Source: Flavobacterium hungaricum (GTDB lineage Bacteria > Bacteroidota > Bacteroidia > Flavobacteriales > Flavobacteriaceae). From it: a stretch of DNA of 64,000 nucleotides. The stretch's first letter is position 1. Each line of letters starts with the position of its first letter. Shown here piece after piece: positions 7,325 through 56,356 of the stretch. The position numbers and the translations under genes are program-made. The DNA is taken from contig NZ_PRDM01000003.1 in the NCBI RefSeq assembly GCF_015182285.1, forward strand, positions 124,001 to 188,000, written 5' to 3'. The notes beneath the pieces are model-generated. The model was not told where the DNA came from and searched no databases. It worked only from the letters and a program-made list of their open reading frames with translations.

Positions 7325-8788
7325 ATGAATATACTTGACATAAAAACATTAGGCCAATTACAAGACGCTGGATATAAAACCAAATCGATCAAAGACGAAT
7401 TAAGAGAAAACCTGCGTGAGAAAATCAAATCGGGGAAACCGGTTTTTGAAGGGGTGCACGGATTTGAAAACACGGTAATTCCCGAACTAGAACGCGCTAT
7501 TCTATCTCGTCATAATATTAACTTATTGGGATTGCGCGGACAGGCAAAAACTCGTTTGGCGCGTAAAATGGTTGAATTATTAGACGAATATATTCCCTTT
7601 GTAGAAGGTTCAGAGATTAATGACGATCCATTTAATCCAATTTCAAGATTTGCAAAAGATTTAATTGCAGAAAGAGGCTATCAAACGCCAATCTCATGGC
7701 TGCACAGAAACGATCGTTTCTTTGAAAAATTAGCAACACCCGATGTAACCGTTGCCGATTTAATTGGAGACGTTGACCCGATAAAAGCCGCTAATTTAAA
7801 ATTATCTTATGCTGACGATCGTGTAATTCATTTTGGAATGATTCCGAGAGCCAATCGTTGTATTTTTGTAATCAACGAATTACCCGATTTACAGGCCAGA
7901 ATTCAGGTAGCTTTATTTAATATTTTGCAGGAAGGCGATATCCAGATTCGCGGTTTCAAATTGAGAATGCCATTAGACATGCAGTTTGTTTTTACAGCAA
8001 ATCCAGAAGATTATACCAATAGAGGAAGTATCGTTACCCCTTTAAAAGATAGAATTGGTTCTCAGATTTTAACGCATTATCCTGAAAATATCCAGATTGC
8101 CAGAACTATTACAGAGCAGGAATCAAAACTCGATCAAAATCAAAGCGATTTGGTTTATGTGCCAAGTCTGGCCAGAGATATTTTAGAACAGATCAGTTTT
8201 GAAGCGCGTGAAAGCGAATATATAGACAACAAAAGCGGTGTAAGTGCCAGAATGAGTATTACAGCTTTTGAAAACTTAATAAGTACAGCCGAGCGTCGTG
8301 CATTACTTTCTGGTGTTGAAAAAACAGCTTTACGTTTGTCGGATTTTGTCGGAATCATTCCAGCAATTACAGGAAAAGTAGAATTGGTTTACGAAGGAGA
8401 GCAGGAGGGAGCCGATGTTGTTGCCGAAAGCCTTATAGGATCTGCAATTAGAACATTGTTCCCAGAATATTTTCCTAAAATTGAAAAATTAGAAAAGCCA
8501 GATGAGAAAACACCTTATTCGGATATAGTAGAATGGTTTTTTGCAGAAAGCGGTTTCGAATTGTTAGACGATGCCTCTGACGCTGAATATAGAAATATTC
8601 TGGATGAGGTAACGCCGTTGGATGTTTTATTAAAAAAATACCAGCCTCAATTACCAAAAGAAGATCAGTACTTTATGAAGGAATTTGTATTGTGGGGATT
8701 GGTCGAGTATAAAAAACTAAGCAAAGACAGATTTGCAAAAGGAAATCAGTTTAGAGATATTTACGGAAGTTATATTAGTAAGTTCTAA
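7325..8788 (+). CDS. MoxR-like AAA+ ATPase (magnesium-chelatase subunit I-like)
   Basis: 487 residues from ATG 7325; an upstream in-frame start at 7286 adds 13 residues of poor quality. Walker A is GLRGQAKT (residues 69-76) and Walker B-like FVINELPD is near 180-187, with Asn-Glu in place of Asp-Glu. A sensor region FVFTANPEDYTNRGSIVTPLKDRIGSQI follows, and a helical C-terminal lid. This is the AAA+ partner expected for the upstream VWA protein. The two together probably remodel or insert metal into an unidentified client. Confidence 0.85.
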   Translation: MNILDIKTLGQLQDAGYKTKSIKDELRENLREKIKSGKPVFEGVHGFENTVIPELERAILSRHNINLLGLRGQAKTRLARKMVELLDEYIPFVEGSEINDDPFNPISRFAKDLIAERGYQTPISWLHRNDRFFEKLATPDVTVADLIGDVDPIKAANLKLSYADDRVIHFGMIPRANRCIFVINELPDLQARIQVALFNILQEGDIQIRGFKLRMPLDMQFVFTANPEDYTNRGSIVTPLKDRIGSQILTHYPENIQIARTITEQESKLDQNQSDLVYVPSLARDILEQISFEARESEYIDNKSGVSARMSITAFENLISTAERRALLSGVEKTALRLSDFVGIIPAITGKVELVYEGEQEGADVVAESLIGSAIRTLFPEYFPKIEKLEKPDEKTPYSDIVEWFFAESGFELLDDASDAEYRNILDEVTPLDVLLKKYQPQLPKEDQYFMKEFVLWGLVEYKKLSKDRFAKGNQFRDIYGSYISKF

Positions 8789-8820
8789 TTCTTATAATAT
8801 ATAGTGTAATATGGTGTCAG

Positions 8821-8859
8821 ACCCGACAAGTTTTTAAAACCTGTCGGGTTTGCTTTTTT
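8821..8859 (+). terminator. Intrinsic terminator of the VWA-AAA+ pair
   Basis: ACCCGACA (8821-8828) pairs with TGTCGGGT (8842-8849), followed by TTGCTTTTTT. Confidence 0.75.
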
Positions 8860-9013
8860 AGATGAATAATTTTAAACACACAGACGCCCATACTATTTGT
8901 CATTTTGAGCAAGGAAGGAAAACAAAAAATCAATCTGGTCTAGCTAGTTTTTTTAAACCGGTCGAATCTTTTTATTTGACAATAGTGTACTTTTACAATC
9001 CAAAAATAAATTT

Positions 9014-9868
9014 ATGTTATTCCTTATATTAAGTATTCTTTGCAGTGTCATTGTTGGTGTGATTTTCAAGATTTCCAGAAAATATAATAGTAATCCGTCA
9101 CAAATTATTTCTTTTAATTATGCAGCTGCAATCGCGCTTTGTTATTTCACTTTCAGTCCAAATCTTCAGGAATTTGACGATCAAGCACCTTGGGGAATTT
9201 ATACAGCGGTTGGAATGCTGCTTCCAATAGTTTTTTTGTTTCTGGCGTTTTCAATGAAATTTATGGGAATTGCCAAAACAGATGCGGCGCAGCGATTGTC
9301 CCTTTTTATTCCCATTTTGGCAGCTTGGTTATTGTTTGGCGAAGATTTTAATACCTATAAAACAATTGGGGTTTTAATTGGTTTTACGGCGCTTTTATTT
9401 ATTTTAAGAAAACCGACAGATAATCAGGAAAACAAATGGATTTATCCTGCAGCGGTTTTGTTTGGTTTTGGAGTTATTGATATACTTTTTAAGAAAATTG
9501 CACTTTATACTGTTGTTCCTTACACAACATCCTTATTTTTTGTATTTATAATTTCCTTTGCAGTTTCAATATTGATTGTCCTGTATAAAGTTTTTATTGC
9601 GAAAGAAAAACCGGCGGTTCAAAATCTTCTGTTTGGGGCTTTGGTTGGAATTTTCAATTTCTGCAATATTTTATTTTATTTAAAAGCGCATAAGGCATTT
9701 GCAGAAAATCCTTCAACTGTTTTTGCCGGAATGAATATGGGCGTAATTATTCTAGGAACTTTGGTGGGGGCTTTTTTCTTCAAAGAAAAACTTTCTAAAA
9801 CTAATATTTTAGGATTGTTTTTGGCTTTAATGGCCATTGTTTTGATTGTTTTTTCGCAATTACAGTAA
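9014..9868 (+). CDS. EamA/DMT-family membrane transporter
   Basis: 284 residues with about ten hydrophobic segments in two similar halves. The second half holds the typical closing motif (NMGVIILGTLVGAFFFKEKLSKTNILGLFLALMAIVLIVF). Drug/metabolite transporter superfamily proteins move small metabolites or drugs across the inner membrane; the substrate cannot be told from sequence. Length is normal. No co-directional partner is tightly linked. Confidence 0.85.
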   Translation: MLFLILSILCSVIVGVIFKISRKYNSNPSQIISFNYAAAIALCYFTFSPNLQEFDDQAPWGIYTAVGMLLPIVFLFLAFSMKFMGIAKTDAAQRLSLFIPILAAWLLFGEDFNTYKTIGVLIGFTALLFILRKPTDNQENKWIYPAAVLFGFGVIDILFKKIALYTVVPYTTSLFFVFIISFAVSILIVLYKVFIAKEKPAVQNLLFGALVGIFNFCNILFYLKAHKAFAENPSTVFAGMNMGVIILGTLVGAFFFKEKLSKTNILGLFLALMAIVLIVFSQLQ

Positions 9869-9974
9869 TTTTTTTTAAAGCATAATCCTTTAATTTACAG
9901 TTGATTTAGTATTATGTTTTTGTTTTTATGAAAATTAACTCTACTAATTCTATAGAATTTATAAATTTAATTTG

Positions 9975-9982
9975 TAGCTTTG
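9975..9982 (+). promoter_or_regulatory. -7 box of the leader region upstream of the dehydrogenase
   Basis: TAGCTTTG matches TAnnTTTG and ends 8 nt before the ATG of the first mini-ORF. No clean TTG at the -33 spacing. Confidence 0.5.
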
Positions 9983-9990
9983 CTTCAACA

Positions 9991-10080
9991 ATGAAAAACT
10001 ATAGCCGAAATATGATAACGTCTTTCAACTGCAGCTTTGCGATGTGCTGCATGATGAATCACGTTATGAAATGGCGTTAA
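9991..10080 (+). CDS. 29-residue Met/Cys-rich mini-ORF (candidate leader peptide 1)
   Basis: ATG 9991 to TAA 10080 encodes 29 residues with six Met and three Cys, clustered as FNCSFAMCCMMNHVM. It starts right after a -7 box and ends 33 nt before a strong intrinsic terminator, the geometry of an attenuating leader peptide. Alternatives are a small secreted or metal-binding peptide, or chance. I do not recognise the peptide. Confidence 0.4.
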   Translation: MKNYSRNMITSFNCSFAMCCMMNHVMKWR

Positions 10081-10113
10081 TAGAGAAAGTACTTGTTAGT
10101 TATTTTTTTTTTT

Positions 10114-10146
10114 AGCCTTTCATTGCACCATGAAAGGCTTTTTTTT
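10114..10146 (+). terminator. Strong hairpin terminator inside the leader region
   Basis: AGCCTTTCAT (10114-10123) and ATGAAAGGCT (10130-10139) form a perfect 10-bp stem with loop TGCACC, then eight Ts. It lies about 155 nt past the proposed start and 155 nt before the dehydrogenase ATG, so transcripts reaching the gene from the 9975 promoter must read through it. Confidence 0.8.
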
Positions 10147-10167
10147 GAATTACTAAAACATCAAAAT

Positions 10168-10230
10168 ATGAGAACCAATAGAAATATAAACATTATGATG
10201 CGCTGCTGTCTTAGAAAAATTCCGTGTTGA
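10168..10230 (+). CDS. 20-residue Cys/Met/Arg-rich mini-ORF (candidate leader peptide 2)
   Basis: ATG 10168 to TGA 10230 encodes 20 residues ending IMMRCCLRKIPC, again with clustered Met and Cys codons. It lies after the hairpin and 71 nt before the dehydrogenase start. The similarity of its MM..CC core to the first mini-ORF argues against chance, but expression is unproven. Confidence 0.4.
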   Translation: MRTNRNINIMMRCCLRKIPC

Positions 10231-10301
10231 ATTTGTTCAAATGCAAAAACAGAAGTAATTCTAAAAACTATAAAGTAACCCAAACCTAAAAACTATATAT
10301 T

Positions 10302-11588
10302 ATGAGTTCAGAAATTATAAAACAGAATCCGTTTCAATCTATGATTGATCGCTTTAATATTGCTGCAGACATTTTAAATTTAGACGAATCAATTAAACAA
10401 AAACTGCAGCGTCCAGAAAAACAAATCACTGTAAATTTTTCTATTGTTTTGGATAATGGAAACGTTCAAAACTTTGAAGGATATCGCGTTATCCACAATA
10501 CTGCGTTAGGGCCGTCAAAAGGCGGTATTCGTTATGACACTGCTGTAAATTTGGACGAAGTGAAAGCACTTGCCGCCTGGATGACTTGGAAATCTGCTGT
10601 AACCGGAATTCCGTTTGGAGGAGCAAAAGGCGGCATTATCTGTGATCCAAGAAATCATTCTAAAAAAGAATTAGAAAAAATTACCAGAGCATATACTAAA
10701 ACATTAGCAGATATTTTCGGACCAGAAAAAGATGTTCCGGCTCCAGATATGGGAACGGGTCCAGACGAAATGGGCTGGCTGATGGATGAATTTTCATTAC
10801 TGCACGGAAAACCAATTCATGCCGTAGTAACAGGAAAACACCTGCATTCTGGTGGTTCGCTGGGAAGAGTAGAAGCAACAGGAAGAGGAGTGAGCATTAT
10901 TAGTCTTTTGGCTCTTCAAAAATTAAAAATCAGACCTGCAAGAGCTACTGCCGCGATTCAAGGTTTTGGCAATGTTGGACTGCACTCTGCCTTATTTCTA
11001 TATGAAAAAGGGGTAAAAATTGTTGCCGTAAGCGATGTCTCTGAAGCTTTTTACAATCCAAACGGATTGAATATCCCAGAATTGATTTTATATTATAATT
11101 TAAATAATAAAACCATAAAAGGCTATCCGAATTCGGTAGCAATCAAACATGAAGATTTGCTGCTTTTAGAAGTAGATTTATTGATTCCGGCAGCAAAGGA
11201 AGATGTTATTACACAAAAAAATGCTGCAGATATTCAAGCCAGGATTATTGTCGAAGGCGCCAATGGTCCGGTTTCTTCAGATGCAGATCAAATTCTGCAC
11301 GATAAAAATATATTAGTTGTTCCTGATATTTTGGCCAATGCTGGCGGTGTTACCGTTTCTTATTTCGAATGGCTTCAGAATTCGCTTTTGGAGTCTTGGA
11401 GAATTAGCCAAATCAATACGCGTTTGGAAGATATTTTAGAAAAAGGTTTTAATACTGTTTTTAGAGTTGCAGTAAAACACAACGTAACGCCTCGTATTGC
11501 TGCTTATATTATTGCTTTGAAAAAAGTAGCCGAAACGCAGTCTGTAAAAGAATTTGCGATCGAAGCGCCTCAGTATAAACAGAATTAA
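10302..11588 (+). CDS. Glutamate/leucine-type amino acid dehydrogenase
   Basis: 428 residues of the Glu/Leu/Phe/Val dehydrogenase family. These enzymes oxidatively deaminate the amino acid to the 2-oxo acid with NAD(P)+. Visible are the substrate motif PFGGAKGGI with the catalytic Lys, the PAPDMGTGPDEMGW segment with the conserved Asp, and the Rossmann motif AIQGFGNVG. The length suits NAD-type glutamate dehydrogenase. The specificity is not fixed by what I can see, so I give no symbol. The unusual leader region upstream suggests transcriptional or translational control. Confidence 0.9.
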   Translation: MSSEIIKQNPFQSMIDRFNIAADILNLDESIKQKLQRPEKQITVNFSIVLDNGNVQNFEGYRVIHNTALGPSKGGIRYDTAVNLDEVKALAAWMTWKSAVTGIPFGGAKGGIICDPRNHSKKELEKITRAYTKTLADIFGPEKDVPAPDMGTGPDEMGWLMDEFSLLHGKPIHAVVTGKHLHSGGSLGRVEATGRGVSIISLLALQKLKIRPARATAAIQGFGNVGLHSALFLYEKGVKIVAVSDVSEAFYNPNGLNIPELILYYNLNNKTIKGYPNSVAIKHEDLLLLEVDLLIPAAKEDVITQKNAADIQARIIVEGANGPVSSDADQILHDKNILVVPDILANAGGVTVSYFEWLQNSLLESWRISQINTRLEDILEKGFNTVFRVAVKHNVTPRIAAYIIALKKVAETQSVKEFAIEAPQYKQN

Positions 11589-11721
11589 AAATCAGGTTTA
11601 CTTGGTAAAGATCATTTTCATTAGTTACGTTTTTTTTCTCCCTTTAAAAACGTAATTGGTGGAAATGTCTTTTCGTTTTATTAAATGAATATAAATTTTA
11701 GAATCGTAAAGTGTTGAAAAG

Positions 11722-12945
11722 ATGAAGAATATCAATTTCCTAGCCTTTGCCATGCCGGCCTTTTTTCTTTTTTTATTTTTAGAATATAAACTTGCGCAGC
11801 GCAAGAAAAGACCAGAAATTTTTAATTACGAAAGTTCTGTTTCAAATATCAGTATTGGAATTGCAGAGCGTTTGATCAACTTATTTATTGCCGCCAGTTT
11901 TTATCAGTTGTATTACTTTATTTATGATAATTACAGGATATTTGAGATTCCGAAAAATGCTTTTATTTGGTTTGCCTTAATTCTGGCAACCGATTTTGTC
12001 TGGTATTGGTACCATCGATTGGGACATGAGGTCAATTTTTTATGGGCAGCACATATAGTACACCATCACAGCGAAGAATTTAATTTTACAGCCGCCGCCA
12101 GGATTACTACTTTTCAGGCCATTATTCGAACGGGATTCTGGTGTGTATTGCCGCTTATCGGTTTTCATCCCACAATGGTTATTACGATGCTCGTTGTGCA
12201 CGGCGCTTATTCGTTCTTTACACATACACAGTTAATTGGTAAAATAAAATGGCTCGAATACGTTTTTGTAACGCCTTCTGTCCACGGCGTTCATCATGCT
12301 TCTGACGAAAAATATCTGGACAAAAATTACGGCGATATGTTTACCTTTTGGGATCGTCTTTTTGGTACTTTTCAAACCGAAGAAGAAAAACCAAAATACG
12401 GATTAACACATCCGCTCAAAAGCTATAGTTTTTTATGGCAGCACTTTCATTATTACTTCGAAATCTATGAATTGATGAAACGTTCTAAAGGTTTTAAAGA
12501 AAAATGGAAAGCCGTTTTTGGAAGCCCGGCACATATGGATCAGGATATTCGCCCCATCTTGGAAAAACGTTTCCTCCAGGATAAAGCGTGTCCAAATCAA
12601 AGATTGCGCTTCAAAAATTACCTGTATATCCAGCTCGGGATCTGCACTTTGTTTCTAACGGCTTTTACCTATTATTTTGATTATTTAGAATTGTATGATA
12701 AGGTATTTGTGCTTTTGTTTATCCTTATTACTTTGGTCAACTGCGGCGCTCTTTTAGAACAACGCAAATGGATCTATTATTTAGAATACACCCGGATTTT
12801 TATACTGACAACTTACTTTTTGTATGAAGAAGATTTGATTGTATTTTTCTTTGTTCCGATTGCGATTATGATTTTTGCTGAGCAGTTATTCTCTTTGAGT
12901 AAACGGTACCAAAATGTTGTTTTGCAGTTGGAGACTACAGAATGA
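11722..12945 (+). CDS. Fatty acid hydroxylase/sterol desaturase-family membrane protein
   Basis: 407 residues with N- and C-terminal hydrophobic segments and the histidine clusters of the di-iron fatty acid hydroxylase superfamily: HRLGH, HIVHHHSEEFN and HGVHHASDEKYLDKNYG. These His ligate the iron pair that activates oxygen for lipid hydroxylation or ether-lipid cleavage (alkylglycerol monooxygenase-like). The C-terminal 130 residues add four extra hydrophobic segments. Substrate unknown. No operon partner: a 1-kb repeat array follows. Confidence 0.85.
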   Translation: MKNINFLAFAMPAFFLFLFLEYKLAQRKKRPEIFNYESSVSNISIGIAERLINLFIAASFYQLYYFIYDNYRIFEIPKNAFIWFALILATDFVWYWYHRLGHEVNFLWAAHIVHHHSEEFNFTAAARITTFQAIIRTGFWCVLPLIGFHPTMVITMLVVHGAYSFFTHTQLIGKIKWLEYVFVTPSVHGVHHASDEKYLDKNYGDMFTFWDRLFGTFQTEEEKPKYGLTHPLKSYSFLWQHFHYYFEIYELMKRSKGFKEKWKAVFGSPAHMDQDIRPILEKRFLQDKACPNQRLRFKNYLYIQLGICTLFLTAFTYYFDYLELYDKVFVLLFILITLVNCGALLEQRKWIYYLEYTRIFILTTYFLYEEDLIVFFFVPIAIMIFAEQLFSLSKRYQNVVLQLETTE

Positions 12946-12949
12946 GAAA

Positions 12950-13968
12950 TAACCACGAATTCCCGAATTTTCTTTTCTATCAATCCGTGTAATTAATCGC
13001 CACGAATTCACGAATTAAACTAATTCTATCCGCATAGATTTTAAAATAATTCGTGACTTCGTGGCGAAAAGAACTTAAATAGGAATAAGAATCAGCCACG
13101 AATTCCCGAATTATTTTTTCTTTTAATTCGTGTAATTATCGCGCATAAATTTCACTTGTTTTTTTAAATAAAAATTCGTGACTTCGTGGCGAAAAAAAAC
13201 TTAAATAAGAATAAGAAACGGCCACGAATTCCCGAATTAAACTAATTCTATCCGCATAGATTTTAAACTAATTCGTGAATTCGTGGCGAAAACAACTTAA
13301 ATAGTAATAAGAAACAGCTACGAATTCCCGAATTATTTTTTCTTTTAATTCGTGTAATTATCGCGCATAAATTTCACGTATTATTTTTTAAATAAAAATT
13401 CGTGAATTGGTGGCGAAAAAAACTTAAATAAGAATAAGAAACAGCCACGAATTCACGAATTTTATGCAACACACTTGGTGAAATACGCGCTGAATAGTTT
13501 CGCGAATTGATTGAATAAAAAGTTATCAATCCGTGTAATTAATCGCCACGAATTCACGAATTAAACTAATTCTATCCGCATAGATTTTAAAATAATTTGT
13601 GACTTCGTGGCGAAAAAAAAACTTAAATAGAATAAGAAACAGCCACGAATTCCCGAATTATTTTTTTCTTTTAATTCGTGTAATTATCGCGCATAAATTT
13701 CACGTATTTTTTTAAATAAAAATTCGTGAATTCGTGGCGAAAAAAAACTTAAATAGTAATAAGAATCAGCCACGAATTCCCGAATTATTTTTTCTTTTAA
13801 TTCGTGTAATTATCGCGCATAAATTTCACGTATTATTTTTTAAATAAAAATTCGTGAATTCGTGGCGAAAAAAAAACTTAAATAAGAATAAGAAACAGCC
13901 ACGAATTCCCGAATTAAACTAATTCTATCCGCATAGATTTTAAAATAATTCGTGACTTCGTGGCGAAA
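12950..13968. repeat. 1-kb array of dyad-symmetric repeats with two alternating spacer types
   Basis: Each unit starts GCCACGAATTCMCGAATT and ends in AATTCGTGAMTTCGTGGC, so each can form a hairpin. Two internal types occur. A carries ACTAATTCTATCCGCATAG (units near 13000, 13219, 13541, 13897). B carries ATTCGTGTAATTATCGCGC (near 13095, 13313, 13640, 13768). The order is A-B-A-B-partial-A-B-B-A, preceded by a partial copy at 12950. A linker GAAAAAAACTTAAATAG-AATAAGAAAC joins the units. No CDS is credible here. The array lies between the convergent ends of the 11722 gene and the 13980 gene. Confidence 0.9.
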
Positions 13969-56002: not shown

Positions 56003-56177
56003 TGGTGGTTTTTCTAATTATGAAATATTTTTATCATAATATTTTCTTATCGTACAATAAGTGTTTCTGAAATGCTTTGCGAGCTCCTTATTTTATTGAA
56101 GCTGTAGTCATTGTAATTTTTTTAAGGAGCAGTATTTTTTCGTTTTGTTAGACCATTTGTCCCGCTCTCCATTATAT

Positions 56178-56214
56178 CTTTTATGTCTCGTTTGAAAAAA
56201 ACGAGACATAAAAG
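56178..56214. repeat. Perfect 16-bp inverted repeat
   Basis: CTTTTATGTCTCGTTT (56178-56193) and AAACGAGACATAAAAG (56199-56214) surround a 5-nt loop. No T run follows on either strand, so it is not a clear terminator. Confidence 0.75.
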
Positions 56215-56356
56215 GATGCCATTTCGATCGGGGCTAGGAGAGAACGTTTATTTTTTCATTTAAAACTTTATAAAGTTTAAGAGATATGGTTTTTAAATAT
56301 TTTCTTACAATTATCCATTTTTGTTTCTATATTAGCTTTTTTAATTTTAATATTAT

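Follow-up and report, generated by a model that had tools for sequence, protein, structure and literature searches.

Between a transporter gene and an amino acid dehydrogenase gene of Flavobacterium hungaricum lie two mini-ORFs rich in methionine and cysteine codons, with a strong terminator between them. Does this arrangement regulate the dehydrogenase gene, and if so, what does it sense? The original prediction, made for the window (a 64,000-nucleotide stretch of contig NZ_PRDM01000003.1), favored a leader-peptide attenuator. We consider it quite probable that positions 9975-10302 are the leader of the dehydrogenase gene, gdh, with a ribosome-mediated attenuator that reads the charging of Cys-tRNA, probably together with Met-tRNA. 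That answer builds on the parts of the locus, their conservation, the pairings possible between them and a homologous leader upstream of metNIQ, all of which are seen in the sequences.

Parts of the locus and their conservation

All parts lie on the forward strand (Table 1), in the order transporter gene (9014-9868), conserved site, -7 box, ORF1, terminator 1, ORF2, gdh. The transporter gene, with only a weak match in NCBIfam, is presumably of the DMT type. The box, the two mini-ORFs with their Met codons, the hairpin and the gap of 71 nt between the ORF2 stop and the gdh start are all as originally described. The eight Ts reported after the hairpin are T10140-10146, and number eight when the last T of the stem is counted. 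The -7 box, which we take to be of the TAnnTTTG type, is separated from the ORF1 ATG by 8 nt, and placing the RNA start from this box suggests that it falls only a few nucleotides 5' of the ATG.

Table 1. Features of the gdh leader region, in window coordinates
Feature	Position	Strand	Evidence
Conserved upstream site CTACTAATTCTATAGAATTTATAAAT, with palindrome TTCTATAGAA	9941-9966	+	Near-identical or identical in four species compared
-7 promoter box TAGCTTTG	9975-9982	+	TAGCTTTG in three, TACGTTTG in one of four species
ORF1, leader peptide MKNYSRNMITSFNCSFAMCCMMNHVMKWR, 29 codons, six Met and three Cys	9991-10080	+	Open in 90/90 loci
Putative sensor codons Met-Cys-Cys-Met, codons 18-21	10042-10053	+	Codon conservation; A-site here leaves 10066-10075 unpaired
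Predicted antiterminator 5' strand ATGAAATGGC, mimic of terminator 3' arm	10066-10075	+	Pairs with 10115-10123
Inner stem of the antiterminator, AGAGAAA (10082-10088) with U-tract (10104-10110)	10082-10110	+	Fold; conservation
Apical segment ACTTGTTAGTTA, near-invariant	10091-10102	+	Full 12 nt in 75/78
Intrinsic terminator 1, 10-bp stem and 7-8 U	10114-10146	+	-13.0 kcal/mol; stem kept in 78/78
ORF2, second leader peptide MRTNRNINIMMRCCLRKIPC, 20 codons, without terminator here	10168-10230	+	Conserved upstream of gdh
gdh, proposed controlled gene	10302-11588	+	Pfam domains and PDB relatives

The dehydrogenase, first described as Glu/Leu-type, is a glutamate dehydrogenase: its product carries the ELFV-type Pfam domains PF00208 and PF02812, and the 39 PDB relatives listed are glutamate dehydrogenases, although it scores under the NCBIfam equivalog cut-offs. 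In one genome (G252, locus L028) gdh appears in two overlapping pieces, through either a frameshift or an assembly error. F. subsaxonicum (G422) has a second gdh at C1:716264-717523, 72% identical, and no small ORF with two Cys occurs in the upstream stretch read for that copy.

Terminator 1 consists of a perfect 10-bp hairpin at 10114-10139 followed directly by its T-run, and by these marks an intrinsic terminator lies between the leader ORF and the structural gene. Eight terminator-like sites occur within 8000-13000, against 3.7 expected, and terminator 1 has the most base pairs among them.

Composition by itself is evidence of only moderate weight. In the 27 window ORFs of at least 200 aa, Cys makes up 0.48% of 12,415 residues and no CC pair occurs. 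Small ORFs with CC are not rare in the non-coding frames of the window, since 9 of its 319 small ATG ORFs of 15-40 aa have CC plus at least three Cys, and this would suit an ordinary constitutive terminator set by chance among meaningless ORFs. The comparative evidence makes that reading hardly credible. The element (query 9984-10150, 167 nt) was searched for in 398 Flavobacterium genomes; 117 have some match at E<=0.01, and 73 have a full-length match (E of 1.1e-29 or better), one per genome, the remaining matches being short and weak. All 73 full-length matches, and all 17 loci from named species, lie between the same transporter gene and a gdh orthologue on one strand. These 90 loci comprise 78 distinct elements. 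Conservation upstream of gdh in 73 of 398 genomes of the genus marks the leader as more than a chance feature. At 59 other Bacteroidota gdh loci (L064-L122), inspection by eye of up to 350 nt of upstream sequence revealed no leader resembling ORF1 or ORF2; short ORFs with CC upstream of some of them (among others L066, L086, L093, L100 and L110) were taken as chance.

ORF1 is open in all 78 distinct elements, with a length of 28 or 29 codons throughout, apart from a few with an extra MT at the start. In the alignment the length classes are separated by a gap of 3 nt, so the frame is preserved. The overall pN/pS of ORF1 is 0.36, falling to 0.23 for codons 14-21 and standing at 0.37 for the last eight codons. 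Compared by frame in a length class of 21 distinct ORFs and another of 49, pN/pS is 0.37 and 0.41 in frame 0, 1.44 and 1.05 in frame 1, and 0.61 and 0.65 in frame 2; frames 1 and 2 are both mostly interrupted. Codon 19 encodes Cys in 78/78 (TGC in 58, TGT in 20), the only amino acid past the start that is invariant. Cys also occurs at codon 14 in 75 and at codon 20 in 75, and Met at codon 18 in 73 and at codon 21 in 76. The distance from the Cys codon to the ORF1 stop is 33 nt in every element. The frame that survives a 3-nt indel, the pN/pS clearly lowest in frame 0, the conserved Cys codons and their fixed spacing contradict the idea of chance ORFs, as the openness of ORF1 does already. By its conservation ORF1 is probably a short translated leader with clustered regulatory codons.

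The 19-nt pattern of the site at 9941-9966 fits exactly once in the F. hungaricum genome. The only other copy of its 14-nt core sits inside a long ORF, and at up to two mismatches the pattern has 15 matches, against 7 for a reversed control. The palindrome was considered as a site of a sulphur regulon and set aside on the single exact fit and the position of the second core copy. Similar palindromic sites were seen in other genomes at L006, about 250 nt before a gene that we take to be metK, and at L010, before what is presumably a sigma factor gene. Separately, 26 nt of the gdh 5' UTR, around TAACCCAAACCTAAAAACTATA, have a 96% match at L008 1501-1526 (G044) and L009 1192-1217 (G057), in genomes of another family of the same order; at L008 the matching stretch has a promoter-like box on one side and a hairpin-like inverted repeat on the other.

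The predicted switch of module 1

The last codons of ORF1, ATGAAATGGC, are similar in sequence to ATGAAAGGCT, the 3' arm of the terminator; they can base-pair with the terminator's 5' arm if one U is bulged. To model the ribosome, we masked RNA as far as 15 nt from the A-site codon, counted from its first base, and folded the remainder up to the 5' arm. In the window sequence, a ribosome with Cys19 or Cys20 in its A-site allows the antiterminator to form at -14.6 kcal/mol. This structure survives for every A-site from codon 18 to 21 and is weaker at codon 22. A ribosome at the ORF1 stop leaves a residual fold of -0.1 kcal/mol, against -13.0 for the terminator. Across the 78 elements the stalled state has a mean of -14.4 kcal/mol (range -17.8 to -11.4), the state with the ribosome at the stop a mean of -0.1 (range 0 to -1.1), and terminator 1 a mean of -14.1. 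The terminator stem is kept in every element, although in three a stem pair has become a wobble pair. Folding of the window sequence also predicts a protector (1:2) hairpin, the structure expected for an untranslated leader. In these models the switch depends on the position of the ribosome at the regulatory codons, and the antiterminator excludes the terminator. Translation-controlled attenuation with a Cys/Met sensor, as originally predicted, is thereby supported in silico by an antiterminator whose geometry depends on the ribosome.

Several comparisons bear on this pairing. The last four codons of ORF1 pair with at least 7 of 10 arm nucleotides in 78/78. For seven of the 78 sequences, dinucleotide shuffling yielded 0-7 of 1000 shuffles with equal pairing at as low an energy; pairing alone, without energy, was matched by 12-118 of 1000. 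At the eight core antiterminator pairs, 99.7% of 608 cells (76 distinct rows) hold standard pairs, against 15-59% when the pairing is slid; four cells have wobble changes and two are broken. The outermost pair, 10066-10123, is excluded from this count because its column is misaligned; it is possible in 48/78, codon 26 being ATG in 44, TTG in 28, GTG in 4 and CTG in 2. Because the pairing overlies codons, its conservation could be partly due to coding. The alignment contains no double compensatory change in the module-1 antiterminator, and column shuffles give identical values. Such changes are lacking because the terminator is almost invariant, and covariation therefore argues neither for nor against module 1.

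An equilibrium fold of the whole leader favors the terminator even in the stalled state, and the fold of the entire window leader with no ribosome includes it as well. Since equilibrium favors the terminator as soon as the 3' arm exists, antitermination would have to be kinetic.

The model that follows, from the start site through stalling and kinetic antitermination to cysteine as the signal, is what we infer from these data. RNA polymerase would start a few nucleotides 5' of ORF1, and a ribosome would follow at once. With sufficient cysteine, the ribosome would reach the ORF1 stop and cover ATGAAATGGC (10066-10075). AGCCTTTCAT would then pair with ATGAAAGGCT, and transcription would end near 10146, releasing an RNA of about 160 nt. 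Under a shortage of Cys-tRNA, the ribosome would stall at codons 19-20, ATGAAATGGC would capture GCCTTTCAT before the terminator 3' arm exists, and the polymerase would continue, so that gdh is expressed.

The terminated RNA could also have a role of its own, as a trans-acting small RNA or the source of a peptide, with control of gdh secondary. What speaks for this is the segment between the antiterminator strands, outside ORF1. The full ACTTGTTAGTTA occurs in 75/78, its ACTTGTTA core is kept in all 78 distinct copies, and the inner stem is mostly kept in both its purine run and its U-tract; the near-invariance of segment and U-tract exceeds the needs of an attenuator loop. Still, the element lies directly upstream of gdh in 90/90 loci with a single full-length match per genome, and an antiterminator has no purpose in a free small RNA. 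The element reaches the gathering score of no Rfam family; its weak matches all lie lower, and an Rfam identity was rejected. Such a primary role is quite unlikely. The free-standing RNA of about 160 nt in the original prediction may thus survive as a by-product of attenuation, although the constant neighborhood of gdh argues against its being free-standing.

Nascent-chain arrest is another alternative, in which the Cys and Met side chains of the peptides would sense metal or redox state independently of tRNA charging. CruR and CutF are known copper-sensing uORFs, the peptides here are rich in Cys and Met, and ORF2 mostly holds KIPCC or KIPPCC near its end. Against this, ORF1 residues past the Cys block are less constrained (pN/pS 0.37-0.54) while the pairing is kept, and the Cys block is located just where a stall in the A-site frees the antiterminator. 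Moreover, the partner operon is metNIQ (see below) rather than one for metal export, and neither of two peptides tested matches Pfam. We regard arrest of this kind as very unlikely, and the metal control once suggested for this locus found no support.

ORF2 as a tandem leader

Of 83 distinct regions upstream of gdh, 81 contain ORF2, at a distance of 90-210 nt from the gene; L061 and L062 lack it. A profile of ORF2 peptides (A3), run against the 398 genomes, matches 83 with E up to 6.9e-4, and the same 83, no more and no fewer, have a gdh orthologue at least 79% identical. The next match (G099, 9.9e-4) has an internal stop and comes from a genome without a listed gdh orthologue. Across 77 sequences, a set that omits the two regions without ORF2, the distant L058, L060 and L169, and one with KIPPCC, pN/pS is 0.24 and codon 20 is TGT in 77/77. 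The KIPCC or KIPPCC motif is mostly kept. Conservation in relatives, proposed earlier as the mark of genuine peptides, is thus found for ORF1, for ORF2 and for the hairpin, and the other two frames differ. Pfam (E up to 0.1) gave no family for the ORF1 peptide and one ORF2-type peptide, although very short peptides can be missed, and 31 ORF2 peptides had no match in NCBIfam.

No terminator was found after ORF2 in the window. Nine distant loci (L203-L211) do have their own terminator 3' of ORF2. In a tenth (L213, from G140, gdh 73% identical), missed by the ORF2 profile, an ORF2-like leader MTLPSKYITNCCCTKPISCCICA is followed by a terminator. In L212, ORF2 is present and the only terminator lies before it. 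Folding suggests that, when the ribosome stalls in the first Cys block, the later TGTTGC codons are free to pair with GTAACA of the terminator; the equivalent in L213 is GTTGCA with TGCAAC. Energies of this module-2 antiterminator run from -7.3 to -15.3 kcal/mol and shrink to between 0 and -2.0 when the ribosome stands at the second Cys block (in L207 and L208 in part). Full-length folds of the ten module-2 loci favor the terminator in seven and retain the antiterminator in the other three, L203, L205 and L208. The ORF2 stops of L206 and L210 fall at the terminator, where a parked ribosome would cover it; the simple model therefore needs release of the ribosome there. L206 (G298) also has about 200 nt more than its relatives between the ORF2 terminator and gdh.

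Seven of the module-2 loci (L203-L209) retain an ORF1 homologue, for example MRNESQNTIPYDCDTIMCYMYDLLYE... at its start. In L204, L205 and L208 this homologue is followed by a strong hairpin with a GCC/GGC stem; by eye, L203, L206, L207 and L209 have none of this type. The strict U-run rule of the terminator scan misses the three module-1 terminators, which were found by reading and then folded. Since the hairpins are present or absent by locus, the half of the tandem pair that is kept differs from clade to clade. The patchiness of the module-1 hairpin among close relatives, in which terminator 2 stays, possibly reflects turnover of attenuators.

For the clade of the window, folds of the stretch between ORF2 and gdh in nine of the 78 sequences showed by eye nothing shared that could replace the lost terminator. 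A terminator-like hairpin occurs there in L165 and a weaker one in L136, and terminator 2 may therefore persist in part of the clade. On this comparative evidence ORF2 is a second, tandem leader of the ORF1 type that has lost its terminator in the window. The two mini-ORFs of the original prediction stand as conserved peptides, but they do not form one device.

Leaders upstream of metNIQ and the probable signal

The two regions without ORF2 reveal a sister operon. In F. zepuense (L061), metN, metI and metQ come before gdh, the last of them 54 nt away from it, and the order in F. subsaxonicum (L062) is the same. Pfam identifies NlpA lipoprotein and BPD_transp_1 among the genes. In both species, metNIQ and gdh apparently form one operon behind one Cys leader; metN is preceded by the leader MAPFTNIAIMQMCCCMKLFSCCESACV or MATYNNMFMLKCCCMNFFSCCRSARV and then a terminator. 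Among 249 genomes of the genus, 41 carry a metN of this kind (E up to 1e-110), and 40 of the 41 have a gdh orthologue, G194 being the exception. We surveyed upstream regions for 34 metN loci from 33 genomes (L172 and L244 share one genome). A leader ORF with a Cys pair is present in 31; L236, L243 and L249 have a single Cys at the site (partly by eye). The predicted metN antiterminators (GGCTT with AAGCC) have a mean of -7.3 kcal/mol in the stalled state, against a terminator mean of -12.2, and at least 6 of 10 arm nucleotides are paired in 22 of 32 leaders scored.

F. hungaricum itself has metNIQ (L255, contig C11) behind a leader, MRNKSLNMKNYYCSSMMCCFAVMKFSDLASI, of the homologous MMCC type, and the terminator there has the AGCCTTTCA stem also used at gdh; such a leader with this stem precedes metNIQ in other genomes too. 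In this genome a joint profile (A6) scores the metN leader at E=6.4e-15 and the gdh leader at E=8.9e-7. The next two matches, from E=0.04, were inspected and taken as chance. A pattern search of the same genome for Cys leaders returned 4 matches, including gdh and metN, and 2 in a reversed control; one candidate, L266, was rejected for want of a terminator by eye. Because the metNIQ of the genome carries a homologous leader, gdh appears to belong to a small sulphur amino acid regulon, and the link to sulphur amino acids suggested from the gdh leader gains independent support. Among 296 genomes of the order, 13 have a match to the leader profile, all of them Flavobacterium; none of the 89 other genera represented has a match at E up to 0.001, which is weak evidence of absence because short leaders diverge fast.

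The reading as a cysteine, or sulphur amino acid, attenuator follows from the run of Cys codons that the leaders share, usually flanked by Met, and from the uptake of methionine by the sister operon. The signal might instead be methionine, or sulphur amino acids generally, sensed by the whole Met-Cys-Cys-Met block. Met codons stand on either side of the Cys pair in most elements, A-sites at codons 18 to 21 each leave the antiterminator free, and metNIQ serves methionine uptake. Yet Cys is the residue common to the leader families seen, with Cys19 alone invariant, and no Met stands just before the Cys run in the leader of G140 (NCCCTKPISCC) or in the metN leaders L237 and L239 (CNNCCGT). A methionine or general sulphur amino acid signal is rather unlikely. 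In a further, unlikely combination, tandem and evolutionarily interchangeable cysteine-reading attenuators would control gdh and methionine uptake, the constancy of ACTTGTTAGTTA would mean that the terminated leader or the antiterminator loop also meets a partner in trans, and the element would be both a switch and a sulphur-stress small RNA.

For the proposed cysteine attenuator, metNIQ appears to fit the metabolism of the amino acid sensed, and the fit of gdh is less obvious. Our guess is that gdh could recover ammonia or balance glutamate when methionine serves as the sulphur source.

Leader-peptide attenuators of the trp, his, thr and ilv type have a short ORF, clustered codons for the regulatory amino acid, an antiterminator that competes for the terminator 5' arm, and a switch set by ribosome position. 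The gdh leader appears to have the same elements. It differs in its Cys (and Met) codons, in the control of gdh and methionine uptake rather than a biosynthetic operon of the amino acid sensed, in its tandem leaders with alternate loss of terminators, in having, by the start site inferred, almost no 5' untranslated RNA, and in its occurrence, among the 296 genomes of the order, only in Flavobacterium. SAM riboswitches and T-boxes also terminate transcripts of sulphur amino acid genes prematurely, but the sensor in the gdh leader would be a coding sequence. No Rfam model matches at gathering score at the gdh leader or before the metNIQ-gdh operon, and the weaker matches at the gdh leader include neither a SAM riboswitch nor a T-box. 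Elsewhere in the window, Flavo-1 RNA (RF01705, 75.5 bits) matches at 56154-56239 on the minus strand; the function of this motif was unclear to the authors of PMC9723704.

Cysteine-rich leaderless uORFs upstream of cysteine-related genes were described in mycobacteria by Shell et al. in 2015 (PMC4633059), who noted that these candidates would be the first bacterial case of cysteine-directed attenuation. Canestrari 2020 is cited in a review (PMC9031893) for leaderless ORFs rich in cysteine. The gdh leader resembles these uORFs in its clustered Cys codons and, if the predicted start holds, in a short ORF that begins at or near the 5' end of the RNA. The mycobacterial polycysteine uORF is close to or coupled with the next ORF; ORF1, unlike it, is followed by an intrinsic terminator that has an antiterminator, and a total of 221 nt, terminator included, separates it from gdh. 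For F. psychrophilum, strong clues for leader-peptide attenuation were reported upstream of amino acid biosynthesis operons (PMC9723704); the available text names no cysteine leader, gdh or metNIQ, and glutamate dehydrogenase does not occur in the main text as available. The portions available of a B. thetaiotaomicron map (PMC7366714) and of the study by Naville and Gautheret (PMC2965389) make no mention of the gdh leader. In the open-access literature, no paper on a Flavobacterium cysteine leader was found among the matches listed.

Because the antiterminator overlaps ORF1 codons, the model gives sharp and cheap predictions in F. johnsoniae. If it is true, the ribosome ties glutamate and ammonium metabolism to the supply of sulphur amino acids, an unexpected link, and the paired leaders, with a terminator missing in different clades, would be a natural experiment on the origin and decay of attenuators.
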